Assembly (NCBI GenBank): GCA_949710005.1
Contig: OX453273.1
Coordinates: 6,802,706-6,866,705 of the forward strand
Source of the DNA: Ricordea florida
Taxonomy: Eukaryota > Cnidaria > Anthozoa > Corallimorpharia > Ricordeidae
Direction of reading: 5' to 3'
Length of the DNA stretch: 64,000 nt
Shown: piece by piece, positions 22,458-42,592 of the stretch
Layout: every line of letters starts with the position of its first letter
How positions within the stretch are numbered: position 1 is the stretch's first letter
Translations under genes and position numbers: made by a program
The notes under the pieces: model-generated
Seen by the model: only the letters and a program-made list of their open reading frames with translations
What the model was told of the DNA's origin: nothing
The model's database searches: none

Positions 22458-22639
22458 GTTAAATAAGCATAATTTAATAGATTTTTAATTTTTACTTTTT
22501 ATCCTTTTATATGAAGTATTTTTATTTTTATTCTTATATTGTTATATATATTTTTCTTTTTACAGGACCCCTTTGATAACAGTACGCATGTACTGAAGGG
22601 CCATCCTGTTTAAAAATTCGTTATTATTATTATTATTTG

Positions 22640-23551
22640 TTCGTCTAGTTTGATCGTCCGGGTGAGGGTAGTTCTGAAAAGAACTGTTGTTGGTGACTGA
22701 CGTTTCGACAACCTGAGCGGAAGTCATCTTCAGAGTCGAGTGAATAATGTTTGTCAGACGATGATGTTATAAGTCTGGTCTGTTAAACGTGATTGGTCAG
22801 TTTAGCCATGATGGTATTGGCTGAAAGACTCGTGTAAAGTTTGTTACCAGTCATTGGTCGGTTTCGATCCGTCTATTGTTTGTCAAATAGGTCGGTGTTT
22901 GGTCCGTCTATAGTTAGTCAAATTATGTCGGTTTGTTAGAAGTCCGTTTGTCGGTTTTGTTTTCGTCATGGATAAGTCGTTTGTAAGGCGCCGGTAGTTG
23001 TTGACATCTGTTAAGAGGTGTTCGTTCCAAGTTGGTGTACCAGCTTTCCAGAGTCAGTCGTTGAAAATAGTTTGTACTGTAGGTTAAGCAATGGGCAGAG
23101 TCCCAGTCAATGTTGTGGTTTGTCAGTTGATGATGTACAGCAATATGATTGTTGGTATCACCATTTCTTGTGGCTCGTTTGTGTTCAGTCAGTCTCGTGT
23201 TAAGGTTTCTGCCAGTCTCACCAATGTAAGAAGCCTGGCAGTCGGAGCATTTGATCTTGTAAACTGCTCCCTGTCTGTTGTTAGGTTCGACCTTGTCTTT
23301 TACCTTGGTCAGTAAATGTCGTAAGGTGATTGTAGGTTTGTGGGCTACACGGATGCTGTAGGGCTGTAGGATCCGTGAGATGATTTCAGAAGTGCCCTTA
23401 ATGTAAGGTATAGTCACTGTAGTAACCGGTGTTGGGTTCCTGTTCGTTGCGTCAGTTTCAGTAGGTCGGTAAATGTTTCGTCTAACAAAGTCAGCGTTAT
23501 AATTGTTTTTGTGAAAGACACGTTCTAGGTAACTGTTTTCGTCACGTAAGC
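22640..23551 (-). mobile_element. PLE copy A, 3' part (GIY-YIG half)
   Basis: This is the distal piece of a minus-strand Penelope-like element split by the virus. From 23417 to 22923 it encodes the GIY-YIG endonuclease region (KIKCSDCQASYIGETGRNLN). It is virtually identical to bases 41.5-42.39 kb read in the other direction. The TAAGC at 23547-23551 is the left copy of the virus target duplication. Confidence 0.9.
22923..23417 (-). pseudogene. PLE GIY-YIG endonuclease segment, copy A
   Basis: The reading frame is open and has the YIGETGRNLNTRLTEHK signature. It is severed from its RT domain by the 16-kb insertion, so it cannot make the full PLE protein. Confidence 0.85.
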
Positions 23552-23815
23552 AGTAGGGGGGAAACGACAGTTCTGGCGCAGCACTTCAAGACCAAAAACA
23601 CAAAAAATCCTGCACGCGTGCAGGATCCAAAATGCGATCAAAATCGTCTTAAAGGAATGACACTGTACATCCAAACACTCATCATGCCCAATCAACGTCA
23701 AACCGTCAAAGAGCTCCGCGCCATTGCCAAGGATCGCAAGATAGCCAAATATTATACGATGCGCCGGGGAGAGTTACTGGAGGCGCTGGGGATGGAAGAG
23801 GTACCTGGTGGTGGA
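23552..23815 (+). repeat. Virus left terminal inverted repeat
   Basis: About 264 bp, nearly identical to the complement of 39317-39580. A G-run length difference lies near the tip. It contains an internal palindrome, CCTGCACGCGTGCAGG. Its inner part codes for the first ~40 residues of the terminal gene, ending at the GGTACCT block. Confidence 0.9.
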
Positions 23816-24040
23816 AAATGTAACCATGGCAGGCGTAAGGTTCAGTGTAAGGATTGTATGGGATCACAAATATGCCCTCATCTAAGACAGAAAGCATATT
23901 GCAAAGAATGTGGTGGTAAGGGTATATGTATTCATGATAGAGTAAAGTACTCTTGCAAAGATTGTGGTGGTTCCCAAGTATGTTCTCATGGTAGAACTAG
24001 GTACAGATGTAAAGATTGTGGGGGGAAAGGGCATATGTGA
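23684..24040 (+). pseudogene. Virus terminal gene: SAP-like domain plus zinc-binding repeats
   Basis: The likely start is the ATG at 23684 (MPNQRQTVKELRAIAKDRKI), matching the PolB start at the other end; an ATG at 23657 is also possible. Residues 1-36 resemble a SAP/Rho-N-type nucleic-acid-binding fold and lie within the terminal repeat. After a short Gly linker come four C-x-H-x(7-8)-C-x2-C repeats (for example HGRTRYRCKDCGG), a zinc-binding repeat known from giant viruses and algae. A one-base length change in the G run at about 24019-24025 ends the frame at 24040. The repeat pattern resumes in the next frame up to a TAA at 24096-24098. The function is unknown; DNA or RNA binding is likely. 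Confidence 0.65.
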
Positions 24041-25691: not shown

Positions 25692-25716
25692 CTTCTATCC
25701 AGTGTTTGGGTAGAAG
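25692..25716 (-). terminator. Hairpin upstream of the 512-aa gene
   Basis: CTTCTATCC / AGTGTTT / GGGTAGAAG: a 9-bp stem with one wobble. It lies 45 nt after the stop of the preceding gene and one base before the next start. Confidence 0.45.
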
Positions 25717-25761
25717 GGGTATAATGTTTAACTCAATAACACACCTTATCGTACGTTATGT

Positions 25762-26364: not shown

Positions 26365-26396
26365 GTTTGGTTACAGTTCTCACGTACTTTTAAATG

Positions 26397-27032: not shown

Positions 27033-27037
27033 TTACA

Positions 27038-28006
27038 TTAACGACGCCTCTTTTTTAATTCGTCTACAAAGTACACTACAACAGCGAGGATCAACAGCCA
27101 AGCGTTCTTACCCAGGAATGAAATGACCTCCCCAGCGGTCTTGAAAAGGAAACTCACGATCGCCCCCACCATACCAGGCAATAACTCACCAAGTTTCTTA
27201 CCGATGGTCTTCAGCCCGTCACCCACACCTTTGCCCAATCTGGATAGGCCCTTGGAAAGATTAGATACGATAACGCTAATGACCACACCAACGGCGCTCA
27301 CAATGGCAAATACCGTGAAACCATATTTCTTGAAGATCGCTTTCACCCGGTGTCGCAATGACATTCGCTCCTGGATTTGCTCATTCTCCACTTCCAAGTT
27401 AGCTATCTTTTGCTCTTGTTCAGCAATTTGTTCCTTGATGGTCTCTATTTGACTTACTTCTTCCGGAGTTTTCAATGCCTTTTCTCGATGGAATCTTACC
27501 TTCTCCTTCAATTTACTAACGAACTCTTTTCTCTTGGTTATCTCACCATCATTGGCTTCCACAATTTCTTCCGCGCTTGGACCTAGATCTTTTGTAATTG
27601 TTTTGGGTAATCCTTTGTTCACATCACCATTCGCATCGAATAATAGATGCCATACATTTCTGTCTGGATCTTTGCCGGTGATTTTGACATTGATTCTACC
27701 CCATTCATCAAATTTGAAATGAAACTTCTTAGGTTTGGCATTTGGGAATTTTTCTACAATCTTGGTCCAGACTTCATCTTTGTTTTCTTCCATAGCCTGC
27801 ATCTCTATCTCTTCACGTGGTAATTGAAGATACCCTGATTTACGTCTAGCACCCTTGGTCGTGGATGTTTCCAAGACTTTGTTTGGTGTTGGAGGCTGCC
27901 TACCAAGTAGCGGGGTATCTTCGAAATAATCGGGATCTTCTTGTTTGTCTTCTTCCCCCAACCCGAAAGGATCGTTTTCTTCTCCTTCAGGATAAGCAGT
28001 TGCCAT
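27038..28006 (-). CDS. Virus coiled-coil membrane protein (322 aa)
   Basis: I start at the ATG at 28006 (MATAYPEGEE), because the longer frame upstream would need a TTG start. The N-terminal 65 residues are acidic and proline-rich. A compact domain (KPKKFHFKFDEWGRINVKIT) follows, then a long coiled coil (about 150-225, IKEQIAEQEQKIANLEVENE) and two or three hydrophobic helices (FTVFAIVSAVGVVISVIV; LLPGMVGAIVSFLFKTAGEV; LLILAVVVYFV) with a basic end. The layout suggests an internal-membrane or fusion-type virion protein, but no family was recognised. Confidence 0.65.
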   Translation of the reverse strand: MATAYPEGEENDPFGLGEEDKQEDPDYFEDTPLLGRQPPTPNKVLETSTTKGARRKSGYLQLPREEIEMQAMEENKDEVWTKIVEKFPNAKPKKFHFKFDEWGRINVKITGKDPDRNVWHLLFDANGDVNKGLPKTITKDLGPSAEEIVEANDGEITKRKEFVSKLKEKVRFHREKALKTPEEVSQIETIKEQIAEQEQKIANLEVENEQIQERMSLRHRVKAIFKKYGFTVFAIVSAVGVVISVIVSNLSKGLSRLGKGVGDGLKTIGKKLGELLPGMVGAIVSFLFKTAGEVISFLGKNAWLLILAVVVYFVDELKKRRR

Positions 28007-28028
28007 ATTTGATGTCGAATATGGCAAC
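27999..28028 (-). terminator. 11-bp perfect hairpin
   Basis: GTTGCCATATT / TGATGTCG / AATATGGCAAC. It starts 12 nt after the stop of the 126-codon gene (28041) and spans the start codon of the next gene. Confidence 0.5.
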
Positions 28029-28040
28029 TTCTAAGTTAGT

Positions 28041-28449
28041 TTATCGCACCCACTTGCTAACTATATATACCAGGATTAACATCCCAACCGCGACAAAGAC
28101 CATCTGAGCCATTCTTTGGTCTTCATTCGGTCGGTAATAGTCGGAGAACTTGGGAGGATCGCCTATTTGATTGTACAATCTCATCGCTTCATCCGTCTCC
28201 GATATGTTCTCAGATGCCTGGTCAGCATCACTCTTCCTCTTATTCATAAAGTCAATATATGCCAAGCGCCTCTGTTCATGCGCAGCGTAATCTTTTTGGT
28301 ACTCCTCCATTGCTTTGTCATGCCTTTTCCTTTCCTTTTCGAGTTCTTCGGGTGATGATCCAGTGAGGGTATGTGTTATGTAGGTACCAATTGCCATGTA
28401 GGTACCAATTACCGATTGCACCTCCGATAACGATCGCTATAGTCGCCAT
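28041..28449 (-). pseudogene. Virus small protein with C-terminal membrane helix, start disrupted
   Basis: The open part (from 28397) has a helical, charged middle (SPEELEKERKRHDKAMEEYQ) and a C-terminal membrane helix (MVFVAVGMLILVYIVSKWV). A good ATG at 28449 begins a hydrophobic leader (MATIAIVIGGAIG) in another frame. A roughly 25-bp partial duplication (AATTGGTACCTACAT occurs twice, 28390-28420) separates the two. The ancestral protein probably began at 28449 and had hydrophobic segments at both ends. I do not recognise its function. Confidence 0.5.
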
Positions 28450-28476
28450 TTGTCAATCTATTGAGGATTCCTTAAT

Positions 28477-28674
28477 TCAATGTTGAAAAAAGTCCTCCAA
28501 CTTGGGACCGTCCTTCAAATGATCGAGTACAGCCATACTGAACCCTTTCTCGTCAAAGGATATTACGGACCCATCGCCATCTTTGGTTATGAAGTCACTC
28601 AAAACAGGCCCATCTTTCATATACTCATTCAAGGCAAGTTTGAATCTTTTAGGATCAAGTGTCACTGTGGCCAT
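28477..28674 (-). CDS. Virus small acidic protein (65 aa)
   Basis: A short hydrophilic protein (MATVTLDPKRFKLALNEYMK...) with two related segments, YMKDGPVLSDFI and HLKDGPKLEDFF, suggesting an internal duplication. It starts 4 nt after the ancestral stop (28678) of the preceding small gene. Function unknown. Confidence 0.55.
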   Translation of the reverse strand: MATVTLDPKRFKLALNEYMKDGPVLSDFITKDGDGSVISFDEKGFSMAVLDHLKDGPKLEDFFQH

Positions 28675-28677
28675 TAC

Positions 28678-28924
28678 TCAAAGCTCTTTTGGTAAGATCT
28701 TTTGATCTTCTAAATAAGTTTTGAGGTACATACTCGCGGACAAAACAGCGACCCATTTGGCGTAATTCATGATATTGGACGATGGATCGCCCAGTAACGA
28801 TTCTTTTTTCTCTCTCTCTCTCTCTCTCTCTCAGGACCTTCTTACCCACATAGCCCACAGCAGCAGCGAGTCCCATTAGAACTGCAGAATCTGTAACAGT
28901 CTTCACAAGCTTGTTGTCTGACAT
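28678..28924 (-). pseudogene. Virus two-helix membrane protein broken by a (GA)n expansion
   Basis: The frame from ATG 28924 encodes MSDNKLVKTVTDSAVLMGLA and a membrane segment, then enters a GA/CT microsatellite (28811-28832) that gives an REREREREK run. Beyond the repeat the original-type reading appears in another frame. It includes a second hydrophobic stretch (AKWVAVLSASMYL) and ends with TGA at 28678, just before the next start. In the current frame translation continues to 28655 with an unrelated tail. Function unknown. Confidence 0.6.
28811..28832. repeat. (CT)n microsatellite inside a viral gene
   Basis: About ten CT units. The length change accounts for the frameshift in the overlapping gene. 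Confidence 0.9.
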
Positions 28925-28932
28925 TTTGTGTA

Positions 28933-29355
28933 TTACATCAGCTCATCATTTAAGCTGTTTTCTATGTTTGGGGGTGTTTTGACCTCATTCATGTCCTTGA
29001 CAGGAGGTGGTTCGAAGTTTACAGAAGGTACGAAGTTGGGTATTCTGTCTTTGTATCTCTTGTATAAAAAATAACCAATCCCTCCTATTATGGAACCACC
29101 GATTAACAAATTATCGAAGGATAGGCTAGGTATCCAGGCATCATCCTTTTTCACCAATGCATCTTGCTGCTGCTGATGCTCCTTTTCTTTCTGACCATCT
29201 ATCAATGCATCCCGTTGCTCTTTTTCCTTCAATGCCTCCTTAGCCTTCTTGTGGTAGTCGGCCAGTTTCTTCCCGGCCTCCACCTTCTTGGGATCCTTTA
29301 CTCTATCCTTGACATCGGGTTCTCTTGTGATTTGCTCAACAGCTTGCTCAGACAT
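28933..29355 (-). CDS. Virus single-helix membrane protein, Lys/Gln-rich (140 aa)
   Basis: The start context is AAACATG. The N-terminal 75 residues are charged and helical (KKLADYHKKAKEALKEKEQR), then comes one membrane segment (NLLIGGSIIGGIGYFLYKRY), then a proline/asparagine-rich tail (FEPPPVKDMNEVKTPPN). The layout is that of a small internal-membrane protein. The family is not recognised. Confidence 0.65.
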   Translation of the reverse strand: MSEQAVEQITREPDVKDRVKDPKKVEAGKKLADYHKKAKEALKEKEQRDALIDGQKEKEHQQQQDALVKKDDAWIPSLSFDNLLIGGSIIGGIGYFLYKRYKDRIPNFVPSVNFEPPPVKDMNEVKTPPNIENSLNDELM

Positions 29356-29387
29356 GTTTGTATCTCTCTTATCACTTAGCTTTAACT

Positions 29388-29412
29388 CTCCTAATAGGTT
29401 GTCTATTACGAG
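29388..29412 (-). terminator. Hairpin after the 326-aa gene
   Basis: CTCCTAATAG / GTTGT / CTATTACGAG: a 10-bp stem with one mismatch, starting 13 nt after the stop at 29426. Confidence 0.5.
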
Positions 29413-29425
29413 AAGTAAGTCTTAA

Positions 29426-30406
29426 TTAACAATGTCCTATCACATACTCATCTTCTGACTCTTGTGGCTCGGCATCATTGGGAGCCAACATACGAGATTC
29501 CGATTTTTGCGGTGTGGCATCATTGGAGGGTAACATGCTAGATTCTGGTTCTTGTGTTGTGGCATTATTGGAGGGTAACATTCGAAAACTAGTCATGCTG
29601 TAGAAATCACTTGGAGTGAAATTCATCTCAGTAACACGAAGACGGGCTGAGGCACCGTAACCGGTCTGCCCGTGGGATCCCCAGAATATACCATCCCAAC
29701 GGATAACAGGATGACCAAAACCGCTTACATACTTGTCGGGTTGCCACATGTATTCAAGTGGGTTAACCATTTCATCATCTGGACCGTATACACAAGTTGT
29801 GGATAGGATGTTGCAACCCTTACCCCAGGTTATGAATTTGAGGTAGGCACGCTGTGGGCTGCTTTTGTCCTTTCTCTTCTCACCCGTTTGTTGGTCCGTG
29901 ATGTTTGTGTAACCGTATATTGGCTTCACAGCCAATGACCAATCATTTTCACTCTTGGCAGTCATGTATGCATTGAAAGTTGCGGGTGGAACGGACCTCT
30001 CTGATTTTGGTTTCTTACAAAACTTTTTGAGTGCATTCAATGTGATCTTCACTACATTGTCAAGTGCTTTTCGAGTCTTGATCTCTTCGGTTGTTGGGCA
30101 ATCCATGGTACCAATCGATGTCATTGGGTATGAAATTTGGAAGTCCTCCAGAGTCTCAAGTCTGCGACTGTCTTTGTCGGTTCCAAATGGCCACACCCCC
30201 GATATACCCGAAAAGAATTGCTTGGTCAATTCAATGAAAATCGGTCGCTTCACACCGTTGGGACCTTGTACGTAAACATCTGAACTAACCCATTGGTTTT
30301 GTGGTTTACTTTGGCCTTTGTTGAAGGATTTACTCTTTGGTTCAGAAACAACAATGGTGTTCCAGTCAAAATCAGAGTCAAGTGCAATGAAGATTGGTTC
30401 ACTCAT
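29426..30406 (-). CDS. Virus 326-aa protein, possible ssDNA-binding-type
   Basis: The start context is AAACATG. A soluble N-terminal domain of about 270 residues contains KRPIFIELTKQFFSGISGVW, QRAYLKFITWGKGCNI and ASARLRVTEMNF, which look like beta-strand repeats. Three tandem copies of a [MLP]SND/NAT-x-[QP]ESE-type motif (positions ~275-318) and an acidic C-terminus (SEDEYVIG) follow. An OB-like core with an acidic tail recalls viral single-stranded-DNA-binding proteins such as the gp2.5-like ones of large DNA viruses. That is weak inference from layout, and I do not recognise the family. Confidence 0.6.
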   Translation of the reverse strand: MSEPIFIALDSDFDWNTIVVSEPKSKSFNKGQSKPQNQWVSSDVYVQGPNGVKRPIFIELTKQFFSGISGVWPFGTDKDSRRLETLEDFQISYPMTSIGTMDCPTTEEIKTRKALDNVVKITLNALKKFCKKPKSERSVPPATFNAYMTAKSENDWSLAVKPIYGYTNITDQQTGEKRKDKSSPQRAYLKFITWGKGCNILSTTCVYGPDDEMVNPLEYMWQPDKYVSGFGHPVIRWDGIFWGSHGQTGYGASARLRVTEMNFTPSDFYSMTSFRMLPSNNATTQEPESSMLPSNDATPQKSESRMLAPNDAEPQESEDEYVIGHC

Positions 30407-30455
30407 GTTTCAACACTTTACCTTTCGGTTATGACATAGTACATAACTCTCTTTA

Positions 30456-30562
30456 AGCCACTTTGTATGTCACCACTAAGTGGCTCACAAGTGGTTATTT
30501 AGTCCTAAAAGTTGTGTTGGGGCTTTGCTGCTTGGGTCTCTTAGTAGGTCATCTACTAAGAG
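30456..30562 (-). terminator. Two hairpins in the widest virus gene gap
   Basis: A perfect 10-bp stem CTCTTAGTAG / GTCAT / CTACTAAGAG lies at 30538-30562, 15 nt after the stop at 30578. A second 8-bp stem, AGCCACTT / AAGTGGCT, lies at 30456-30485. The 171-nt gap also contains the presumed promoter of the 326-aa gene. Confidence 0.5.
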
Positions 30563-30577
30563 GCTCAAAATCGGTTC

Positions 30578-31228
30578 TTACATATTCCATCGTTCTTTCA
30601 TGTCTCTCAATTCCTCGTGGCCAATACACCAGTCTAGCGCTCGATCGGGATGCCATGCTGCACCCTCTAATTCATCAAAAACACGTTTGAATTCTAGTCT
30701 ATGTAATTCCTTGTCATAGTTCAACATTTTGACTCTAATGTATGAAAGATTAGACTCCATTCCATTTGCAACATGATTAACCATGGGTCTAGCCAGACTA
30801 GGGTTTTCTAAAACATCCTCTAGATCCCAATCCCAATCCCAATCATCATCATCATCATCATCATAGGGTCCAAATATGTCACAGTCATCAACTTTTCCAT
30901 TAAGACACACTTGGAGTCCATCCATTAAAGCATTCCTAATCCTAGATCTCAAAACTCTCACAATACGATTGATTGTATCATCCATAGAATCAACATCATC
31001 ATCGTAATGGTCTACTATCATCTGTTGAAGTTTCTTTTTGTTTTGTAGCTCAAAATTAAACTCAAGTCTTGTGTATCTAGGGTTGATTTTCTCGAAGCAA
31101 TCAAGAACCTCTGGTCCTACTCTATTGAAGAATGCATCAAAGTCAGAGTCATTCTCGTTGGCATATCCGGTGAATATGTCGAAACGTGTTTCTGTGGTTT
31201 GCATGATGGGGTGCTTTTCCCATGGCAT
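30578..31228 (-). CDS. Virus acidic protein of unknown function (216 aa)
   Basis: I start at the ATG at 31228 (MPWEKHPIMQTT), because the longer frame needs GTG. It is a soluble protein with an Asp/Trp run at about 128-142 (YDDDDDDDWDWDWDLEDVLE) encoded by a TCATCATC repeat. The flanking domains have RYTRLEFNFELQNKKKLQQM and HRLEFKRVFDELEGAAWHPD. It belongs to the packed group that follows MCP and ATPase. No known domain was recognised. Confidence 0.6.
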   Translation of the reverse strand: MPWEKHPIMQTTETRFDIFTGYANENDSDFDAFFNRVGPEVLDCFEKINPRYTRLEFNFELQNKKKLQQMIVDHYDDDVDSMDDTINRIVRVLRSRIRNALMDGLQVCLNGKVDDCDIFGPYDDDDDDDWDWDWDLEDVLENPSLARPMVNHVANGMESNLSYIRVKMLNYDKELHRLEFKRVFDELEGAAWHPDRALDWCIGHEELRDMKERWNM

Positions 31229-31263
31229 AACCAGTCTTGAAGACACTTTTCCTAGAATCCACT

Positions 31264-31875
31264 TTAGTCCTCGAGTTTTGTTGGGTCTTGCTCAAGTTGT
31301 GTTGGATTGGTGCTTAGGTCCTGCTCAAGTTGTGTTGGAGTGGTGCTTAGTTCCTGCTCAAGTTGTGTTGGATTGGTGCTTAGGTCCTGCTCAAGTTGTC
31401 TTGGGTATCCATCCTCTCTCAACTTGAAGTGATTTGCAAAATGAACAAATGCCGAAAGTAATGCTGTGAGTCTTCCACCTTTGCGTATAACTGAACCAGA
31501 TAGATCTGAGATCTCCTTCATTATCAATTCATCTTTCTTACAATCTTTCACAAGAGCCTCTTTGTCATCTATACTTCCGTAATTTCTCAAACCGTAATCC
31601 ATAGCCTTAGCCATCAATTTAAAAGAAGAGTCTGCCAAGTAATCGGCAATCTTCTGGCCCGACTTAACTTGGTATATTTTGTAATACTTTTCCACATCCT
31701 TGTCCGATAGTTTGGTTACATCGGGGAGGTCCATGACCACACCCGTGTATTCTTTTGTCGAACCCGTACAAGCCAGCATTGAAAGAGATTCCCTCTTTGA
31801 CTCCAAATCATCGATTGGTGATGGTGTTGTATCAACTGATGCTTCACCGTTCAGTATCTCTTCAAGGTTAGCCAT
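31264..31875 (-). CDS. Virus protein with C-terminal 11-residue repeats (203 aa)
   Basis: It overlaps the end of the ATPase gene by 8 nt. The start context is AAACATG. The N-terminal 150 residues form a helical domain (KLSDKDVEKYYKIYQVKSGQ; LSAFVHFANHFKLRED). The C-terminus is four copies of an 11-residue unit of QLEQ[DE]LST[NT]PT type (33-bp DNA repeats at about 31270-31400), the last degenerate. Position next to MCP/ATPase suggests a morphogenesis or virion role. The family is not recognised. Confidence 0.6.
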   Translation of the reverse strand: MANLEEILNGEASVDTTPSPIDDLESKRESLSMLACTGSTKEYTGVVMDLPDVTKLSDKDVEKYYKIYQVKSGQKIADYLADSSFKLMAKAMDYGLRNYGSIDDKEALVKDCKKDELIMKEISDLSGSVIRKGGRLTALLSAFVHFANHFKLREDGYPRQLEQDLSTNPTQLEQELSTTPTQLEQDLSTNPTQLEQDPTKLED

Positions 31876-32506
31876 GTTTAGCCTCGGACGCGGGTATCTC
31901 TAAGTATTTTTCAAACGGGTGACGCAGTGAAAAGCAAAGTCTGGCGTACTTTTCAGTCTCGAGTAGCTTCTTGTACCTCTTACGTTTTTCAGCATCTAAT
32001 GCACCACCATATTCCTCAAATAACATTTTCATCGCGGTTTCAGACGGGTTGTAAAACGACACTACGCATGCGACATTCTCTCGGAATGGTTTCGAGATCG
32101 ATGTTAGCTGTTGGGTGAGAACCCACACGGATATGCCAATGTGCCTCCCGGAGAAGGCCAGATTGATGAATTTGTTTGTCCGGTTCTTCAAGTATTTCGA
32201 AACAGCGCAATCGTCGAGTATTATGAGTGTGTTCTCACCCGAGAATAACGTTGAACAAAGCGCTAGCAAATAGTCAATCTCGTCCTCATTACTGGAGTCT
32301 GGTGAGAATACCCAAAATCTCTTGTCCCCCTTTGCAAAGCCTCTGTAAGTCTTGTTATGGATGTAAGTGGGGCAGATCAAGACAATGTGGTCGAACACGC
32401 CCCTAAAGTGTCCTCGAAGCTGGTCCACTATGTATTGAGTCTTTCCACAATTCGTAGGTCCAGTAATGATACAGTTGAATGGGATTTTGTCCACTAACTC
32501 ATTCAT
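31868..32506 (-). CDS. Virus DNA-packaging ATPase (A32/FtsK-HerA type)
   Basis: It is expected to pump viral DNA into the capsid. Walker A is GPTNCGKT at residues 16-23. Walker B is TLIILDDC at about 92-99, and a Gln-bearing sensor-like stretch, SVWVLTQQ, lies at about 121-128. Length (212 residues) is usual for Polinton/PLV/virophage packaging ATPases. It lies 13 nt downstream of the capsid candidate, the standard arrangement. No frameshift was seen. Confidence 0.88.
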   Translation of the reverse strand: MNELVDKIPFNCIITGPTNCGKTQYIVDQLRGHFRGVFDHIVLICPTYIHNKTYRGFAKGDKRFWVFSPDSSNEDEIDYLLALCSTLFSGENTLIILDDCAVSKYLKNRTNKFINLAFSGRHIGISVWVLTQQLTSISKPFRENVACVVSFYNPSETAMKMLFEEYGGALDAEKRKRYKKLLETEKYARLCFSLRHPFEKYLEIPASEAKHG

Positions 32507-32519
32507 GGTTTGATTATGT

Positions 32520-33755
32520 TTAGTACGTTATCTCTCTTAAGTTTGAATTCTTAATTGACATGGCAGCGTCAGCAACCACGAACATGTAGCAGGTAAGAAC
32601 CCTGCCTCCTCTCTTCTCCCTATTAATCTCGAGTCTTATGCCATCCCGAGTACTAGTCAGCTCCAAACCGTTCCCATGAACATCGTTGTCAGGGTAAGTC
32701 CTCAGATCGATCCACAGAGCAAACTTGTTCGTATAGAAATCAGACTCCTTGATGGAATCATCGATACCAACTCGTTTAATTATGGCCTGCCATAAATCAG
32801 TTGGTAACATGCCTTTCGAATAAAGTTTGTTTGGTTCTCCATCTTTGTCAATCTTGACCGATGTGATCTTTGGGTTCACAAAAATCTCAGAGTCCCTGGC
32901 ACCTGCTGCATATGGGGCTGTGAAAATACATAGTATCCCAGTCATGGACTTCCTGGGCACGTTAATATGCTCATTGATCACACCATCAGTGTTCTCAGAG
33001 ATTGGGAAGGTTTTGTGAAGAAGTATCTTCTCATACAAGAAAACCCTTCCATTCTGGTACGAGGCAATGGCTTGACTGGCTAATCGGTCACTTGATATGC
33101 ATTGATACTCCAGCTCCATATTTGTTAGTTTGTAATCAGGTGTTGTTTCAGCGTTTGAGTAAACGACGACATCAGAGACTGGAGCTAGAGTTATTTCGAA
33201 TTTGAGTGGATGTGGTAAGGCTTTTGGATAGAAGATTCCATGATCTTTGAGTATCGTGTGGTCCAATGGTATTTCGTACCTAGTGTTATGGACTGCACCT
33301 AGAGTATTTTCTGCTGCATTTGAGGTAACTTTGTCACCGGCATTGGTTCTGATTTTCCTTACATTCTCGGATGATATGCCCTGTCTCAATCTGTTATTGC
33401 GCTCGGTCTCTGACAAAAACAAATCGTGGTAAGTCTTGAACAAATCAAACCTGTCAATGTCCTCTATGATTTCACCCCCGAATAGAACCCTGTATCGTGA
33501 AACCAGGTTCCTTCCCAAGTTGTTGACAAGTGTGTTGTTCTTGTGTCCTGTCACACTCATATCGAAAGTGATGTACACGCTGCCAGGCACAATCACCAGG
33601 TTGTCGGCCAGTTTTGGTATTTCAATGTATAATGTCTCGCCAGGATTGGCTGATGATGGGTTTAGCGTGATCCGATTTAATGAGGCCTCTGCCCTCAAAC
33701 CTTTACGCATCCTGGGAACACGATCAGTATCAAGAATGTATGATATTCCAGCCAT
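32520..33755 (-). CDS. Virus candidate major capsid protein (411 aa)
   Basis: This is a large beta-rich protein with no membrane segment, directly before the packaging ATPase, which is the MCP position in Polintons and relatives. It begins MAGISYILDTDRVPRMRKGL. RITLNPSSANPGETLYIEIP is followed by alternating hydrophobic strands (NLVIVPGSVYITFDM; RGGRVLTCYMFVVADAAMS near the end). Size is at the short end for double jelly-roll proteins. Its text differs from the canonical adintovirus MCP I know, so the assignment rests on position, length and strand pattern. The 25 bp between it and the integrase start must hold divergent promoters, unless promoters lie within genes. Confidence 0.55.
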   Translation of the reverse strand: MAGISYILDTDRVPRMRKGLRAEASLNRITLNPSSANPGETLYIEIPKLADNLVIVPGSVYITFDMSVTGHKNNTLVNNLGRNLVSRYRVLFGGEIIEDIDRFDLFKTYHDLFLSETERNNRLRQGISSENVRKIRTNAGDKVTSNAAENTLGAVHNTRYEIPLDHTILKDHGIFYPKALPHPLKFEITLAPVSDVVVYSNAETTPDYKLTNMELEYQCISSDRLASQAIASYQNGRVFLYEKILLHKTFPISENTDGVINEHINVPRKSMTGILCIFTAPYAAGARDSEIFVNPKITSVKIDKDGEPNKLYSKGMLPTDLWQAIIKRVGIDDSIKESDFYTNKFALWIDLRTYPDNDVHGNGLELTSTRDGIRLEINREKRGGRVLTCYMFVVADAAMSIKNSNLREITY

Positions 33756-33780: not shown

Positions 33781-34768
33781 ATGTCTAGTGACGATGGTTT
33801 AAGTCGATTATACTACTCTACCGATGGATACTGGAAAGGGTACTCGGCCATAGCAAAGTTGGCGAGTGCGGCCAGTGACCGAAAGTGTTGCTAGAGATTG
33901 GTTGGAGAAGCAAGCATTGTGGCAGATTTATGTTCCTCCACCAAGGTACATACCCAGACCACATTGGGTCGTTGGCAAACCAAATCAAATTCATCAAGCG
34001 GACTTGCTGTTTCTTCCTCACGATACAGTGAGAAGAAAAACATACCGCTATGCGCTGGTTGTGGTTGATATCGCGTCTAGGTACAAAGATGCTGAGGCTC
34101 TGACCTCCAAAGATAGTGGTGAAGTAGCCAGGGCGTTTGAGAGGATTTATGCTCGGAGGCTAAAGTGGCCAAAGACATTAATGGTGGATCCCGGTAGAGA
34201 ATTCATGGGTAGTGTCACTCACTTGATGAATAAGCATCAAGTAGACGTACAGCGAAGTAAAGCTGGTAATCATCGAGCGCAGGCTTTTGTAGAGAGGGCT
34301 AATAGAACGCTTGGTGAGAAATTGTTTAGCCATCAATATGCGCAGGAGATGGTGAGTGATGTTAGGTCCAGGGTTTGGGTGAAAAGGCTGCCCGCCATCA
34401 TGAAGACTTTGAATTCTGAACCAACACGCATCACAGGTAAAGAGCCTGATGAAGCTTTGGAATTGAAAGAGGTTGATGTCAAACCTATGGAATACAAGAG
34501 AGCTGTGGGTTTGAATGAGAAGAGGTTGCCCCCGGGAGTCGAGGTTAGGTATTTGTATTCACCCGGTGAAGATGAAGGTGGTGACAAACGAAGAGCCACT
34601 GATCCTGTATGGAGCCTTGAGGTTTATGACATAGCGAGAACGGTAATTTCACCAGATCAGCCAGTGGTGTACTATTTAGATGGAGTACCGAAGCGAGGGT
34701 TTGTGCGCGAGGAACTCCAAGTTGTTCCCGATGATACTGAATTACCACCCTCTAGAGTACTTAAGTGA
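33781..34768 (+). pseudogene. Virus retroviral-type integrase (DD35E), frameshifted
   Basis: The integrase inserts the viral genome using its terminal repeats. The N-terminal helical segment begins at ATG 33781 (MSSDDGLSRLYYSTDGYWKG) in one frame, which closes at 33894. The rest is open from about 33866 in the next frame (VARDWLEKQALWQIY), so one extra base near 33.87 kb separates them. The catalytic core has Asp in HQADLLF, Asp in MVDPGREF and Glu in FVERANRT, with D-35-E spacing. The C-terminal SH3-like part (VRYLYSPGEDEG, YYLDGVPKRGF) is present. Its end overlaps the convergent TFIIB-like gene by 27 nt. Programmed +1 frameshifting is possible but unproven. Confidence 0.85.
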
Positions 34769-35575
34769 CGTTGTTGAGATGTCAGCCATTTCACGAACTA
34801 TCTTGATCAATGCAATGTCCGCAATTTTAACTTTATCGGCAAAGATCTTCTTCGTCATGCCTATTTGATTTTTATACTCCTGGTTCATACATAAGTAAAA
34901 GAAGACAATACCCGCTGCAACTACACCGCTAGTACAGCGCTCAAGAATCTGTGATGTTGCTCGAAAGTACTTGGCAATGGACAAAATACGTCTTTGATGA
35001 GATTCATCAACCCCAGTAACTCTCATTACCCAGGGAATAAGTTTCTCTGGTGTAATGTAGTTGGTTCTCGCCTCTGGGAATGCTTCCAAGTACATTTCTA
35101 AACCACGTGTCATGGCTCTTTTCTTGAGTCCAAACAAATTCCCAATGTAATCTAACGTACGATACTCACCAAATTCTTGGTATGTGTAAAACAAGCATGA
35201 AGCCACCAAAGACGTACGAATCTGGCCGCGATTTTTACACTTGGACTTTACGATCTCTTGATACTTGGCTTCTACGATATCGATCATCATAGAAGACACA
35301 TTCAAGTTATGTCTCTCGAATACAATACGAACTCCCTTTGGTTTTGATCTACGAAGATCATACCTAATGTCTGATGGGTTGTACGTCCATTGTAGTTTGG
35401 AATAGTCCATCCGTTCTAGTTCAGTCTTACAGAGGCTACAAACAACAATCCCTGTCTCATCCCTATACACACTTTCATGCTTACAGACCTGTTCGTCCTC
35501 TTCATCAGCTTTCTTGAACATAGACTGAAAATGATCGGCAAGGCTGTGGTAAGTTTCATCTGAATCGTAATCCAT
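34742..35575 (-). CDS. Virus TFIIB-like transcription initiation factor (277 aa)
   Basis: TFIIB bridges TATA-bound TBP and RNA polymerase II. Here an N-terminal zinc ribbon (C31-x-H33 ... C46-x2-C49, in QVCKHESVYRDETGIVVCSL) is followed by a linker and two cyclin-like repeats. Repeat 1 is about 85-170 (RTSLVASCLFYTYQEFGEYR; LDYIGNLFGLKKRAM). Repeat 2 is about 175-270 (CTSGVVAAGIVFFYLCM; MTKKIFADKVKIADIALIKI). The V(A)AxxxFxxx and final HTH-like helices are typical of TFIIB core repeats. Such a gene is normal in giant viruses but, to my knowledge, not standard in metazoan Polintons. It may direct host Pol II to viral promoters. Confidence 0.8.
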   Translation of the reverse strand: MDYDSDETYHSLADHFQSMFKKADEEDEQVCKHESVYRDETGIVVCSLCKTELERMDYSKLQWTYNPSDIRYDLRRSKPKGVRIVFERHNLNVSSMMIDIVEAKYQEIVKSKCKNRGQIRTSLVASCLFYTYQEFGEYRTLDYIGNLFGLKKRAMTRGLEMYLEAFPEARTNYITPEKLIPWVMRVTGVDESHQRRILSIAKYFRATSQILERCTSGVVAAGIVFFYLCMNQEYKNQIGMTKKIFADKVKIADIALIKIVREMADISTTSLKYSRGW

Positions 35576-35614: not shown

Positions 35615-38600
35615 TTAAGTTTTTACCGAAATCAGAGTCCTAAAGTGACCATATGCATATGTGTGTATCCCATCCTCCCTTACCACCCTCTTGTCGTCTT
35701 CGCATGATAGTGCCACCTTGTTCACAGTCTCTGTGTACAAGTCGTGCAGGTGACTCCTGATGATATTCATCGTCCTCCTCTGTGATTTTTGATTGAAGAG
35801 GCAATCCTTGTAGTCTTTGAAGCTTATGCTCTTTTTCACCACAGCCTTCTTTACACCCTTGCACTTCTTTTCCTCCTTTCCCTCATCCATCATATATGAA
35901 TATAGTTTGGCCCTGAGACCCACGAATTCTATGATCTGTTGGCCACCCGCCTCATCCTTGAACATGCCCCCGACTTTCTTGTTCACACCCACCTCAATGC
36001 CGGATGGATGGTCTTCAGGGTAGTTGCTGGTGTCAAACCTGTCCCTCACATCTGGGCTAATGTCTTTGTAGAAGTCATCCGTCTCCACCTCGTATGCCAG
36101 TGAATCTGTGTCTGTAAATAACAACTTGGCCTTGCTACCATACTTGGGCTTGATGTAGTTGTAGTGAAAGTCGTACATTATGGTCTTGCTTATTTCCAGG
36201 ACTGAAAAGCCTAGGTAAATGGGTTTGTCCAGCACCAAGTTCGTCTTTTTCATTTGTACTGCAACCAGATTTTCGCAAAAGATCGTGCTGTGGTGGTAAT
36301 TCGGCTTCGATACCAACTTCTTGGCTTTTGCCTCTTCAGTGACCAAACGAACGTCCACCCTGTTCCTCACGTTCTCCATCGTTTTCCCAAAGACTGAGTT
36401 GTTCATCAACTTGAAAAAGTCCTTCTCGAAATCGTTTGTTGCTTTGGTCCTTAGTTCGGTGTTCAGGTCAATATAGGGCTTCAGCCACGCGGACTCTTTG
36501 AATGTGATGCCCCTGTATATATTGTAGACTTTCAACCCGAGACTCAAATACTGTTTCAGTGTCTCATGGTGAATGATGTATTTTCGTTTGTCCCTTAGGT
36601 TTGGAATTAGCTTATCCACACCATTTACCGTAACTCTCTCTGGTGCTAGTGGATAGTCATTATGCAGTTTGTGAAGGTGCTTTGGGTACATTAGATTAAC
36701 CTCTAGTATGCATGGTAGATCTTCCCACTTCGATACACGCTCTTCTTCAGTCAACCATCGAAAGTCATGTGTTGGTAAAGGTTTACTCATTGCACATCCG
36801 TACAAACCGTTTGCATCCATGTATGTGATGTACTTTGTTGGTAATGATGGGTCATAATCTTTCATGTATGGATTGTTGGCTTTGCCATATCTAGTTGAGA
36901 TCATGGAGATACCCCCTCGGATGCCCTCCTCAAACATGAGAAGCATGTCGGGGTCATTCAAAAGTTCCAATCTCACATTGGTCATTTTCAGGGCCGCGTC
37001 CCACGCCAATCCAGGTGCAGTGTAGTACCAAGCTGGATCCAAGTCGTAGTTCTTTCTACAAACTTCTCTGAAGTTCTCGAAAACATCAGCTAACAACAAG
37101 ACATCCAGTTCAAGGTAAAGGTCGTGGTATTCCCTGAAGTTCTCAATCCCAAAGACTTTCCACACGTTTTGAGCATGCTGGTAATCCTCATCCGATATTT
37201 CGGCATTGTAGAGCTTCGAGTAGAACTCATCCTTTGGTGGGAGATGAGTTTCACCGAGCTTATCAAACCCATCAAACCAATCGTACGGAAATACCCCCTT
37301 CCTAGTGAGTAACTGCAGGTCTGTGCCATCTTCCATCACCCTTTCAAACCAACTCTTTACATTCACCAGAGAAGATTGTGGTAGGTTGTCTGACAACCTT
37401 CTGAGGCCCGCTGCCATAAACCGAAAGCTGTCAATGAACCTGATTCCCCGTTTAATCTCAACCATTTTCCCTTTCTTGTTCTTGTAAGTGTCGACAACAA
37501 TCTCCTTCGTGAACGAAATGTATTTTTCATCGTTGACTGGTATGCAATCTAGCTTACCTTTCGATTCCCCTATGTTCCTCACAAATAAATGGCCATCGTA
37601 TCCGGATAGGTTATGGAATATAACTGGCATGAAATTAGGCACCTTGTAATTCAAGTTGCACTCTTGATGCGCGGCGCCTCTGTACTTTCCACTAAGATGA
37701 CAATGGTCCAACACCTTGTCATGGCCAAGCATCGATCCGCAGATGTGACAATGTGTGGCATTTTCATAGGCTATTCTCTCATCCTGACTGACACGAGGAT
37801 TTTTGGATAGCTTGAACCTATCATAGACTTGTTTGACATCCGACTCCAAGCTCTCCATAAACATCTTGGGTACATCTTCGTCTGGTGACTCAGCTGTGTG
37901 CCTCACAAGTTTGGGTTCGAATATAGCGTTATCAAAGCACTTGATCAGGTAACAGAAGCCTGATGGTTTATGCTTTTGATATCTATTGGTGAAGCTCCTA
38001 CCCTCATCTTGGTAACAAGTATACATCTTTTCAGTGTAGCACTCAAAATCTGCATACACAACAAACGGTACCTCCATCTTCCTGTTGTGATTCTTGAAAC
38101 GTAAGAACTGCGGGCTCCCATCTTCGTTCATGGGAACTGTCGTCTTGACCGCTTGATGATTGCTGCAAAACTCTAGATGCTTGTCCAGTGAGGATTGTGT
38201 ATTGAATGGGTTAAGACATCTGTGGCAAAAGTATTTTCTACCATCGTGTTTATCAACTTGTGATGACAAAAGCCTACTCAAGTTCTTAATCCAACAGTAG
38301 TGATTCGTTTTATCTTTGTGTAACAAAAGTAAGTTTATCACTGTCACCTCTCGCCTCTTACTGATTCTCAAAACGTTCACATCAGACCCGTATCCATATA
38401 CGTTAATGGCGTAAGGATTTTGCTTTTCAAACTTGGTAATGTCCCTTAGTGTAACAGGGAACTCCATTCCCGTCCAGTCAAACCTCTCAGAATTCTTTCT
38501 CATCTCAGCATTCAGTCTTTGACCATCTTTCTCTTTGGGAAATACAGCAGATGTCACCGCCCACTTGAAACACTCATGGTCATTCTCATTCTTGACATTG

Positions 38601-39448
38601 ATTATAGCCTTCTTATCAGCCAGAGCCTTTGGTAGAGGTATGTAAGAAGTCCCAGAGATAGGCTCAAATGGATTAATGTGTATATCAAAGTACTCAACTC
38701 GATCAAATTGCCACCCAGACTGTTCACCTTCAAACTTCGCAACCTTTTCAAGTTGTAATTCCGTCATTGCATCGAATAAGTTATTCGTGTCAGTTGAGTC
38801 CGTTACTATCTCAAGGTTAGTATGAAAGTACCCCTCAGTGTATTCAACATTACCCGTAACAAGATCCTCTTTTACGAATCTACAAATTAGTATAAACTTC
38901 ACCTTGATGGGTTTTCTTCTAGTATAAAGTAACTCCAAAACCTTTGATTTTATTTTCTTGATGAACTCTCGAGGACCGTACCCCCTCTTACCATCGATCC
39001 GATAGGTCTTGAAGAACCCTTTCATTGCAGTTTCCTTTTCTTTTACCCTGAACGGCTCCTTTGCAGCCCAGATGCTCCTTATTTCCTCCTTCAACTTCTT
39101 GAGTTTCTCTTTCACAGGCTTTTTGATTCTCTTTGGTACATAATTCAAAATCCAATTCGCAAACTTATTTATTTTCTTTTGTACATCTTTGTTATATCCC
39201 GAACGAAGTGTTCTATACCGACTAGGAGGTACATATCTTGTGGGCCTAAGAATCGGGACATTTATTTCTGGGACAGGCTCATCGAGAATATGCGTTGTTC
39301 CACCACCACCACCACCACCACCACTAGGTACCTCTTCCATCCCCAGCGCCTCCAGTAACTCTCCCCGGCGCATCGTATAATATTTGGCTATCTTGCGATC
39401 CTTGGCAATGGCGCGGAGCTCTTTGACAGTTTGACGTTGATTGGACAT
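35615..39448 (-). CDS. Virus protein-primed family-B DNA polymerase
   Basis: Replicates the viral genome. I start at MSNQRQTVKELRAIAKDRKI (39448), because that start lies in the terminal repeat and has a twin at the other end; MTLYIQTLIM at 39475 is also possible. In about 1277 residues: SAP-like 1-36; Gly run ~42-50; C2H2 zinc finger ~408 (FCHRCLNPF); ExoI YADFECY ~463; endonuclease-VII-like CHICG...DHCHLSGKYRGAAH ~566-590; ExoII FHNLSGYDGH ~612; ExoIII YLELDVLLLADV ~780; motif A DANGLYGCAM ~880; motif B with NNSVFGK ~1015; motif C FTDTDSLAY ~1112. All catalytic acids are present. Length is normal for Polinton PolB. The frame is uninterrupted and even continues upstream into PLE sequence. 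Confidence 0.93.
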   Translation of the reverse strand: MSNQRQTVKELRAIAKDRKIAKYYTMRRGELLEALGMEEVPSGGGGGGGGTTHILDEPVPEINVPILRPTRYVPPSRYRTLRSGYNKDVQKKINKFANWILNYVPKRIKKPVKEKLKKLKEEIRSIWAAKEPFRVKEKETAMKGFFKTYRIDGKRGYGPREFIKKIKSKVLELLYTRRKPIKVKFILICRFVKEDLVTGNVEYTEGYFHTNLEIVTDSTDTNNLFDAMTELQLEKVAKFEGEQSGWQFDRVEYFDIHINPFEPISGTSYIPLPKALADKKAIINVKNENDHECFKWAVTSAVFPKEKDGQRLNAEMRKNSERFDWTGMEFPVTLRDITKFEKQNPYAINVYGYGSDVNVLRISKRREVTVINLLLLHKDKTNHYCWIKNLSRLLSSQVDKHDGRKYFCHRCLNPFNTQSSLDKHLEFCSNHQAVKTTVPMNEDGSPQFLRFKNHNRKMEVPFVVYADFECYTEKMYTCYQDEGRSFTNRYQKHKPSGFCYLIKCFDNAIFEPKLVRHTAESPDEDVPKMFMESLESDVKQVYDRFKLSKNPRVSQDERIAYENATHCHICGSMLGHDKVLDHCHLSGKYRGAAHQECNLNYKVPNFMPVIFHNLSGYDGHLFVRNIGESKGKLDCIPVNDEKYISFTKEIVVDTYKNKKGKMVEIKRGIRFIDSFRFMAAGLRRLSDNLPQSSLVNVKSWFERVMEDGTDLQLLTRKGVFPYDWFDGFDKLGETHLPPKDEFYSKLYNAEISDEDYQHAQNVWKVFGIENFREYHDLYLELDVLLLADVFENFREVCRKNYDLDPAWYYTAPGLAWDAALKMTNVRLELLNDPDMLLMFEEGIRGGISMISTRYGKANNPYMKDYDPSLPTKYITYMDANGLYGCAMSKPLPTHDFRWLTEEERVSKWEDLPCILEVNLMYPKHLHKLHNDYPLAPERVTVNGVDKLIPNLRDKRKYIIHHETLKQYLSLGLKVYNIYRGITFKESAWLKPYIDLNTELRTKATNDFEKDFFKLMNNSVFGKTMENVRNRVDVRLVTEEAKAKKLVSKPNYHHSTIFCENLVAVQMKKTNLVLDKPIYLGFSVLEISKTIMYDFHYNYIKPKYGSKAKLLFTDTDSLAYEVETDDFYKDISPDVRDRFDTSNYPEDHPSGIEVGVNKKVGGMFKDEAGGQQIIEFVGLRAKLYSYMMDEGKEEKKCKGVKKAVVKKSISFKDYKDCLFNQKSQRRTMNIIRSHLHDLYTETVNKVALSCEDDKRVVREDGIHTYAYGHFRTLISVKT

Positions 39449-39580
39449 GATGAGTGTTTGGATGTACAGTGTCATTCCTTTAAGACGATTTTGATCGCAT
39501 TTTGGAATCCTGCACGCGTGCAGGATTTTTTGTGTTTTTGGTCTTGAAGTGCTGCGCCAGAACTGTCGTTTCCCCCTACT
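39317..39580 (-). repeat. Virus right terminal inverted repeat
   Basis: Reverse complement of 23552-23815 with few differences. It contains the PolB start codon and the SAP-like N-terminal coding segment. A (CCA)n run coding the Gly stretch lies immediately inside it (39299-39323). Confidence 0.9.
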
Positions 39581-40516
39581 TAAGCTGTCCGCTGTGTCAC
39601 AAACTAGTTGCGCTCGTCTCGTCAAAGTCTTTATAGTCGTGGCTTTGTGTGAAGTCGGGTTGTAGGATGATTGGTCAAGTAATCTGTCGGTATGTGTCGG
39701 TTTTCTGTATACTCTCGTTCGCAGTTCGTTGTTGTCGCGGCTTACCAAACAGTCTAGAAAAGGAAGTTTTCCATTTTCTTCGATCTCTTTAGTAAACTGG
39801 ATGTCGGCGTTCTGTTCGTTAAGGTGGTCGTGAAAACCGTCAATTTCGTCTTTGTGAACGGCGGTAAAGGTGTCGTCAACGTAGCGAAACCAAAGCGGTA
39901 TCGTCTGTCGGTAAGTTGCAAGGGCACGTTCCTCCACGTGTTGCATCACAATTTCCGCGACAACAAAGAAACAGGCGACCCCATGGCTGTTCCATGTAAC
40001 TGTTTGTAGTGTTTACCGTTGTACTGAAAGTACGTCGACGTAAGGCAAAGGTTCAGTAAGTCCATGATGTCTTCTGTCGGTAACGGAAGTTTAACTGTAG
40101 ATTGCTGTATAGCTGTCTCGGTACACTGTAATGCTAGTTGAAGTGGAATACTGGTGAACAGTGACTTCACATCAAAAGACAAAAGGTTGTAGTCGTCAGG
40201 TATCTGTGCTGTCTTAATAGCGTCAATAAAGTTCTCCGTACATTGTAGTTTAGATCTTGATTTGTTAGTTAGGGGTTGCAGTATGGTCGTCAAGTACTTG
40301 GACAGTTGATACGTAGGGGATCCACAGAATGACACTATAGGTCTCATCGGTATACCAGGTTTGTGCAGTTTAGGTAGTCCGTAAAGTCTCGGTGCTTGTG
40401 GTACTGAGCACCTCAGTCGGTAGTAGCGTTGAGTATCAATAGCGTCAGTCTTTTTAAGCGTAAGTATTTTGCTGTTAAGTTTACGTTGAAGTGCTGGCGT
40501 CGGGTCGCGTTTAAGC
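39581..40516 (-). pseudogene. PLE copy A, 5' part (reverse transcriptase half)
   Basis: This is the proximal part of the PLE split by the virus, minus strand, encoding RT blocks up to KTLTRRAQLVCDTADSL. At the active site it reads RYVDDTF where copy B has RYVDDIF. A short rearrangement after GSPVS shifts the frame at about 39948. From there the frame runs on into the virus terminal repeat and PolB. Confidence 0.85.
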
Positions 40517-40562
40517 TCTTCGTAAGTTTGTTTGTCGTAAACAAGTGCTTAAACGCGACCCG
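40501..40562. repeat. Head-to-head junction of the two PLE copies
   Basis: CGGGTCGCGTTTAAGC at 40501-40516 and its complement at 40547-40562 face each other across a 30-nt spacer. Both copies are 5'-truncated at the same base, making a large palindrome with 1.8-kb arms. Confidence 0.9.
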
Positions 40563-42107
40563 ACGCCAGCACTTCAACGTAAACTTAACAGCAAAATACT
40601 TACGCTTAAAAAGACTGACGCTATTGATACTCAACGCTACTACCGACTGAGGTGCTCAGTACCACAAGCACCGAGACTTTACGGACTACCTAAACTGCAC
40701 AAACCTGGTATACCGATGAGACCTATAGTGTCATTCTGTGGATCCCCTACGTATCAACTGTCCAAGTACTTGACGACCATACTGCAACCCCTAACTAACA
40801 AATCAAGATCTAAACTACAATGTACGGAGAACTTTATTGACGCTATTAAGACAGCACAGATACCTGACGACTACAACCTTTTGTCTTTTGATGTGAAGTC
40901 ACTGTTCACCAGTATTCCACTTCAACTAGCATTACAGTGTACCGAGACAGCTATACAGCAATCTACAGTTAAACTTCCGTTACCGACAGAAGACATCATG
41001 GACTTACTGAACCTTTGCCTTACGTCGACGTACTTTCAGTACAACGGTAAACACTACAAACAGTTACATGGAACAGCCATGGGGTCGCCTGTTTCTGTTG
41101 TTGTCGCGGAAATTGTGATGCAACACGTGGAGGAACGTGCCCTTGCAACTTACCGACAGACGATACCGCTTTGGTTTCGCTACGTTGACGACATCTTTAC
41201 CGCCGTTCACAAAGACGAAATTGACGGTTTTCACGACCACCTTAACGAACAGAACGCCGACATCCAGTTTACTAAAGAGATCGAAGAAAATGGAAAACTT
41301 CCTTTTCTAGACTGTTTGGTAAGCCGCGACAACAACGAACTGCGAACGAGAGTATACAGAAAACCGACACATACCGACAGATTACTTGACCAATCATCCT
41401 ACAACCCGACTTCACACAAAGCCACGACTATAAAGACTTTGACGAGACGAGCGCAACTAGTTTGTGACACAGCGGACAGCTTACGTGACGAAAACAGTTA
41501 CCTAGAACGTGTCTTTCACAAAAACAATTATAACGCTGACTTTGTTAGACGAAACATTTACCGACCTACTGAAACTGACGCAACGAACAGGAACCCAACA
41601 CCGGTTACTACAGTGACTATACCTTACATTAAGGGCACTTCTGAAATCATCTCACGGATCCTACAGCCCTACAGCATCCGTGTAGCCCACAAACCTACAA
41701 TCACCTTACGACATTTACTGACCAAGGTAAAAGACAAGGTCGAACCTAACAACAGACAGGGAGCAGTTTACAAGATCAAATGCTCCGACTGCCAGGCTTC
41801 TTACATTGGTGAGACTGGCAGAAACCTTAACACGAGACTGACTGAACACAAACGAGCCACAAGAAATGGTGATACCAACAATCATATTGCTGTACATCAT
41901 CAACTGACAAACCACAACATTGACTGGGACTCTGCCCATTGCTTAACCTACAGTACAAACTATTTTCAACGACTGACTCTGGAAAGCTGGTACACCAACT
42001 TGGAACGAACACCTCTTAACAGATGTCAACAACTACCGGCGCCTTACAAACGACTTATCCATGACGAAAACAAAACCGACAAACGGACTTCTAACAAACC
42101 GACATAA
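40545..42107 (+). CDS. PLE copy B: reverse transcriptase plus GIY-YIG endonuclease
   Basis: A 520-codon uninterrupted frame of a Penelope-like retroelement. RT blocks are PRLYGLPKLHKPG, RPIVSFCGSPTYQLSKYL, LLSFDVKSLFTSIPL, GTAMGSPVS and WFRYVDDIFTAVH (YVDD). A linker and a GIY-YIG nuclease follow (GAVYKIKCSDCQASYIGETG...RLTEHKRATRNG). It is 5'-truncated relative to full-length PLEs (about 800 residues), so the N-terminal RT part is missing. It is the intact reference for copy A, showing the uninterrupted TAAGC target. Confidence 0.9.
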   Translation: MLKRDPTPALQRKLNSKILTLKKTDAIDTQRYYRLRCSVPQAPRLYGLPKLHKPGIPMRPIVSFCGSPTYQLSKYLTTILQPLTNKSRSKLQCTENFIDAIKTAQIPDDYNLLSFDVKSLFTSIPLQLALQCTETAIQQSTVKLPLPTEDIMDLLNLCLTSTYFQYNGKHYKQLHGTAMGSPVSVVVAEIVMQHVEERALATYRQTIPLWFRYVDDIFTAVHKDEIDGFHDHLNEQNADIQFTKEIEENGKLPFLDCLVSRDNNELRTRVYRKPTHTDRLLDQSSYNPTSHKATTIKTLTRRAQLVCDTADSLRDENSYLERVFHKNNYNADFVRRNIYRPTETDATNRNPTPVTTVTIPYIKGTSEIISRILQPYSIRVAHKPTITLRHLLTKVKDKVEPNNRQGAVYKIKCSDCQASYIGETGRNLNTRLTEHKRATRNGDTNNHIAVHHQLTNHNIDWDSAHCLTYSTNYFQRLTLESWYTNLERTPLNRCQQLPAPYKRLIHDENKTDKRTSNKPT

Positions 42108-42296
42108 TTTGACTAACTATAGACGGACCAAACACCGACCTATTTGACAAACAATAGACGGATCGAAACCGACCAATGACTGGTAACAAACTTTACACGA
42201 GTCTTTCAGCCAATACCATCATGGCTAAACTGACCAATCACGTTTAACAGACCAGACTTATAACATCATCGTCTGACAAACATTATTCACTCGACT

Positions 42297-42328
42297 CTGA
42301 AGATGACTTCCGCTCAGGTTGTCGAAAC
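42297..42328 (+). ncRNA. Hammerhead-ribozyme-like core in PLE 3' region
   Basis: CTGAAGA at 42297-42303 and GAAAC at 42324-42328 are separated by a segment able to pair GAC/GTC. The complement occurs in copy A near 22.70-22.74 kb. PLEs are known to carry hammerhead motifs in their terminal repeats. The flanking stems were not verified. Confidence 0.4.
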
Positions 42329-42390
42329 GTCAGTCACCAACAACAGTTCTTTTCAGAACTACCCTCACCCGGACGATCAAACTAGACGAA

Positions 42391-42592
42391 CTACTGATAC
42401 TCCTGGGTTCAAACCTTTTACTATATTATTATTATTATTGGCGAATACATGAAGTCTGAATGTATGTTGAATGCGAGAAATCCGGACGAGTTGCCCAAAA
42501 GATTCACGGAAAGCAATTTTCTTCCCCCTCTTCGAAGATCTAAAATTGAGATAATTATGAGAGTACAATAAGTCTACGAGTATCCATAAAGA
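42391..42592. other. Short intronic stretch
   Basis: It contains an ATT microsatellite at about 42424-42440. Nothing else was recognised. Confidence 0.4.

Follow-up and report, generated by a model that had tools for sequence, protein, structure and literature searches.

The 64,000-nucleotide stretch of the Ricordea florida genome analyzed here (contig OX453273.1, positions 6,802,706 to 6,866,705; hereafter the window) carries a Polinton with a gene that is almost certainly a divergent TFIIB, and this Polinton is present in many copies. The gene occupies the minus strand as one uninterrupted frame of 277 codons that runs from an ATG at 35575 to a stop at 34742-34744; the plus strand of 34742-35575, read in frame 1, contains many stops. 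A first-pass annotation made from the sequence alone had given the open reading frame (ORF) exactly these coordinates and this length, with no strand. It had also placed the gene in the block adjoining PolB, in agreement with the 39 bases that separate it from a PolB-type ORF. The 3' end overlaps a convergent integrase ORF by 27 bases (Table 1).

The case for TFIIB homology comes from several comparisons. A profile of 25 TFB proteins (89 ORFs, reduced to 85 by a length filter and to 25 by a redundancy filter) gave the TFIIB-like protein 18.1 bits, whereas the highest score among 2000 shuffles was 12.2. Run over the 288 ORFs of the window, the same profile scored it at 18.3 bits and the next ORF at 3.4. 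Residues 105-230 match profile positions 149-272, and the aligned parts follow the TFB order, from the zinc ribbon through the reader to the first and second repeats. PHROG 20431, an unnamed family that three TFB proteins match at 1.1e-65 to 3.4e-83, matches residues 108-266 at 1.7e-7. When the window's protein and 17 genomic copies (18 rows) were compared with the 25 TFBs, profile against profile, the result was 92.3% (E 5.4e-7, 143 columns). A tblastn search of 25 candidate stretches matched the protein at 3e-5 to a TFB carried by two IMG/VR contigs, and in a phmmer search of PDB two archaeal TFBs ranked first, at only 0.063. The structure comparison against TFIIB that had been suggested at first pass returned TFIIB matches, though with a model guided by the TFB alignment: among viral structures, the TFIIB of the marseillevirus-like LCMAC102 came first (UniProt A0A481YU70; 34% identity, 257 aligned columns) and that of Marseillevirus second (D2XAL5; 21%, 253 aligned columns).

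The domain organization agrees with this assignment. The putative zinc-ribbon ligands form the pairs C31-x-H33 and C46-x2-C49 and are invariant in all 18 rows; C31 and the second pair align with the TFB zinc ribbon. The C-x-H and C-x2-C motif read as a zinc ribbon at first pass is present, with a first pair that is atypical in comparison with TFBs. W63, R75, and G81 of the reader-like stretch sit in columns invariant with the 25 TFBs, in a stretch that is shorter than in TFBs and modeled with low confidence. Two cyclin-like repeats in the expected order, as originally proposed, are recovered by the sequence profiles and by the TFB-guided model, which places helices within residues 91-165 and 176-276 and gives the zinc-ribbon region a predicted local distance difference test (pLDDT) score of about 64-67.

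Several observations weigh against TFIIB homology. Pfam returned no TFIIB match for the protein even at E 1; among the 18 rows PF00382 reached 0.014 at best, in three of them, while three unrelated families reached 0.0045-0.009 in more rows. The NCBIfam TFIIB model stayed far below its cut-off of 384 bits (15.7 bits, E 0.0059), and in PDB the copy profile ranked two unrelated chains ahead of 1ais_B, which scored just 0.28. The good structure model was built with the TFB alignment, and the single-sequence model (pLDDT 38) was useless. Another profile, built from 21 divergent viral TFB-like ORFs that came from 95 IMG/VR stretches brought in by a zinc-ribbon DNA pattern, gave no signal against the protein. 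Within the protein itself, C31 aligns with the second of the two Cys that TFBs usually have as C-x2-C, leaving C-x-H as the first zinc pair, and column 257, a near-invariant Arg in TFBs, is Ile. On the strength of the Pfam miss and the guided model, the protein could be some other cyclin-fold or helical protein, or a chance resemblance. We consider this highly improbable in view of the independent PHROG match, the shuffle control, the identity to LCMAC102 TFIIB along 257 columns, and the tblastn match to TFB. The protein lies below the curated PF00382 cut-off, which is a threshold for detection and does not define the structure; pieces from a second Polinton lineage, described below, lie above it. 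The IMG/VR scan, phage records, and GTDB contigs contained no match to the protein. Very divergent TFB-like ORFs occur on a number of IMG/VR contigs (L111, L141, L153, L164, L167, and others).

The first-pass annotation had named a close match to a host TFIIB pseudogene as a result that would refute it. One host TFIIB exon shares 89% identity with human TFIIB along 37 aa. The TFIIB-like protein did not match this exon (a chance piece elsewhere on the stretch gave E 0.86), and BLAST against human core fragments gave only chance pieces (E 1.3). Together with the one open frame and its location within the element in all 20 copies retrieved, this makes a host pseudogene extremely improbable.

The gene is repeated across the 538 Mb genome (48 contigs searched). 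We scored the best 140 of 293 candidate places, which sets a lower bound on copy number and an upper bound on intactness. All 140 have E < 1e-143 and 78-100% identity, and six contain internal stops; since only the best candidates were scored, open frames are over-represented among them. In 20 of 20 further copies, sampled across the identity range, the PolB segment lies on one side and the integrase on the other. Seventeen of these were aligned with the window's protein, after exclusion of L206 and L207, which are cut short, and of L214, which has a stop. The pairwise ratio of nonsynonymous to synonymous substitution rates (dN/dS) among the 20 copies and the window's gene was below 1 in 204 of 208 pairs, with a median of 0.58 (two of 210 pairs were dropped for low dS), a pattern that, judged from sequence, is one of mild constraint mixed with decay after insertion.

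TFIIB pieces also occur in a second Polinton lineage. A search of the host genome with PF00382 found 22 places, all above the cut-off. Seven were set aside as probable host exons by clustering, two of them also by tblastn with human core fragments, and 12 of the remaining 15 were examined (L220, L221, L225-L227, L230-L236). In all 12, pieces of a Polinton major capsid protein (MCP), ATPase, or integrase lie beside the TFIIB piece within the same stretch of about 3.2 kb; they are 37-56%, 50-66%, and 47-68% identical, respectively, to the window's proteins. The order is MCP, TFIIB, ATPase in L226, the only stretch with both MCP and ATPase, and the other stretches fit it; the order in the window differs (PolB, TFIIB, integrase). 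None of the 12 stretches contains a full-length TFIIB frame (the longest piece is 154 aa), and four have stops within the matched part; this lineage is apparently older and broken. The presence of TFIIB in Polintons thus does not depend on the window's gene alone. A point on the other side is that the second-lineage TFIIB profile does not recognize the window's protein (1.4 bits, a score that 76 other rows of the shuffle control exceeded). With no cross-recognition, the gene may have been acquired twice or may be a single, very old one.

Homology to TFIIB, the order of the domains, the position and copy number of the gene, and the open frames are directly supported. We somewhat favor a role as the element's own initiation factor, in line with the promoter-selection factor proposed at first pass, directing host polymerase to element promoters. 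In this picture, the contacts with TBP and promoter DNA would be made by the cyclin repeats and the contact with host RNA polymerase II by the zinc ribbon, and the polymerase would be steered to element promoters during replication; expression, the two kinds of binding, and promoter preference are inferred. Position 257 presumably contacts promoter DNA upstream of TATA; if it does, the Ile found there would give a promoter preference different from that of the host. Pfam named no RNA polymerase subunit among the 15 ORFs scanned, shorter ORFs being outside the scan, and the factor therefore probably serves a polymerase from outside, for which host RNA polymerase II is the plain choice. Against such a role, no shared promoter motif was established upstream of 13 frames: ACTTAAA, with one mismatch allowed, occurred in 10 of the 13 upstream stretches against 6-9 in 15 shuffles, and two other settings were at chance.

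The altered reader region and Arg-257 column would also suit a TFIIB mimic that keeps RNA polymerase II or TBP binding without normal initiation, competing with host TFIIB and damping host transcription instead of serving element promoters. This is not very likely, since the aligned copies retain all the domains in order; the constant position next to PolB and integrase does not distinguish a mimic from an initiation factor. The partner might instead be the RNA polymerase of a co-infecting giant virus, in a virophage-like dependence. The closest viral structure match, a marseillevirus-like TFIIB well ahead of the next in identity, points that way, but likeness of the factor indicates descent and not the partner polymerase, no giant virus turned up in this host (though no search was aimed at one), and we regard this partner as unlikely. 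High divergence, the atypical zinc pair, and the position next to PolB would fit a protein of TFIIB ancestry with another job, such as an accessory DNA-binding protein in replication or packaging; the order of ribbon, reader, and two repeats, still recognizable despite great divergence, makes such a change of job quite unlikely.

The first-pass annotation had assigned the gene to a Polinton-like virus. Membership in a Polinton holds; the gene content, with an rve integrase and a PolB-type ORF, suggests that the element is better called a Polinton/Maverick. The PolB-type ORF, a putative protein-primed PolB that we name in part from polymerase motifs, is 46-51% identical to ORFs of two IMG/VR contigs (L001/L003 and L002, found through a PolB DNA pattern and alignment) in a segment without a Pfam or PDB match; the parts of these contigs examined contain no TFIIB-like ORF. 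IMG/VR scans with the MCP and with the PolB segment as queries returned nothing, and no maturation protease was indicated by Pfam or a clear PHROG match among the unnamed ORFs of the element. Residues 721-766 of the PolB-type ORF resemble Endonuclease VII slightly below the Pfam cut-off. Beyond the ATPase, the block 24153-31875 holds nine ORFs without a Pfam name above cut-off. A reverse transcriptase with a GIY-YIG domain, which we take to be Penelope-like, lies within the terminal repeats (39578-41486 and 22923-23417); in the right repeat its sequence forms a near-perfect 1.9 kb palindrome that is absent from the left. A Rho_N domain is encoded in the inverted repeat (23618-24040), and on the right side it runs in frame into the start of the PolB-type ORF.

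Table 1. Features of the TFIIB-like gene and of the Polinton that carries it (window coordinates).
Feature	Position	Strand	Evidence
TFIIB-like gene, 277 aa	34742..35575	minus	ORF, profile matches, guided model, genome copies
Zinc-ribbon ligands C31, H33, C46, C49 (residues 31-49)	35429..35485	minus	sequence, copy alignment, TFB alignment
B-reader/linker-like stretch, residues 58-81	35333..35404	minus	alignment to 25 TFBs; low model confidence
Cyclin-like repeat 1, about residues 91-165	35081..35305	minus	profiles, PDB phmmer, TFB-guided model
Cyclin-like repeat 2, about residues 176-273	34757..35050	minus	profiles, profile-profile comparison, TFB-guided model
PolB-type ORF, upstream part fused to retroelement/terminal inverted repeat sequence	35615..39949	minus	IMG/VR ORF similarity; polymerase motifs
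rve integrase	33866..34768	plus	Pfam rve 6.5e-9
Major capsid protein	32520..33755	minus	Pfam Capsid_N 1.7e-6
A32-type packaging ATPase	31868..32506	minus	Pfam Pox_A32 1.7e-12
Left terminal inverted repeat	22631..23814		
Right terminal inverted repeat, broken by palindromic insertion with reverse-transcriptase sequence	39318..42399		

Small Polintons are generally taken to rely on the host for transcription. If some of them have an initiation factor of their own, they would choose their own promoters, and the TFIIB gene may let this element do so. With many open copies, tests of expression, promoters, and selection are directly possible in one host. Full-text searches, mostly outside the subscription literature and judged from titles, abstracts, and passages, found no paper reporting TFIIB in a Polinton. 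Where papers mention both polinton and TFIIB, the passages checked concern giant-virus TFIIB or marker sets (e.g., PMC6401483, PMC12638062), and one of these papers treats TFIIB as a near-universal giant-virus marker gene (PMC12638062). Given this use, TFIIB in Polintons provides a new character for the question of how Polintons and giant viruses are related, and it cautions against assigning a contig to a giant virus by TFIIB alone. More tentatively, a distinct group of animal Polintons could possess TFIIB as an old, long-established gene, found in two lineages of this genome and at two places, that gives promoter autonomy as in giant viruses; its marseillevirus-like nearest relative could then connect Polintons with Nucleocytoviricota at the level of a gene, whether through transfer or through common descent. 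We consider this wider reading somewhat less likely than not.

Relatives of the gene are familiar chiefly from cells, giant viruses, and archaeal viruses. Eukaryotic TFIIB and Brf show no BLAST similarity to the window's protein above chance (human core fragments, host exon), and the protein is without the C-terminal extension that Brf has. With the TFBs of archaea and archaeal viruses (PHROG 20431) the zinc ribbon, the W63-type reader motif, and the two repeats align in order, at only 15-22% identity and with differences in the first zinc pair and the Arg-257 column. For LCMAC102, TFIIB and RNA polymerase subunits are both counted in the same table of PMC6401483, whereas no such subunit was recognized among the 15 ORFs scanned in the window's element. 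According to passages of Bellas (2023; PMC10120064), cnidarian MCPs are the only metazoan MCPs outside the main Maverick-Polinton cluster. With metazoan Polintons/Mavericks and adintoviruses, the element shares a PolB-type ORF, an rve integrase, an MCP, an A32 ATPase, and terminal inverted repeats, and it differs from them in its TFIIB gene.
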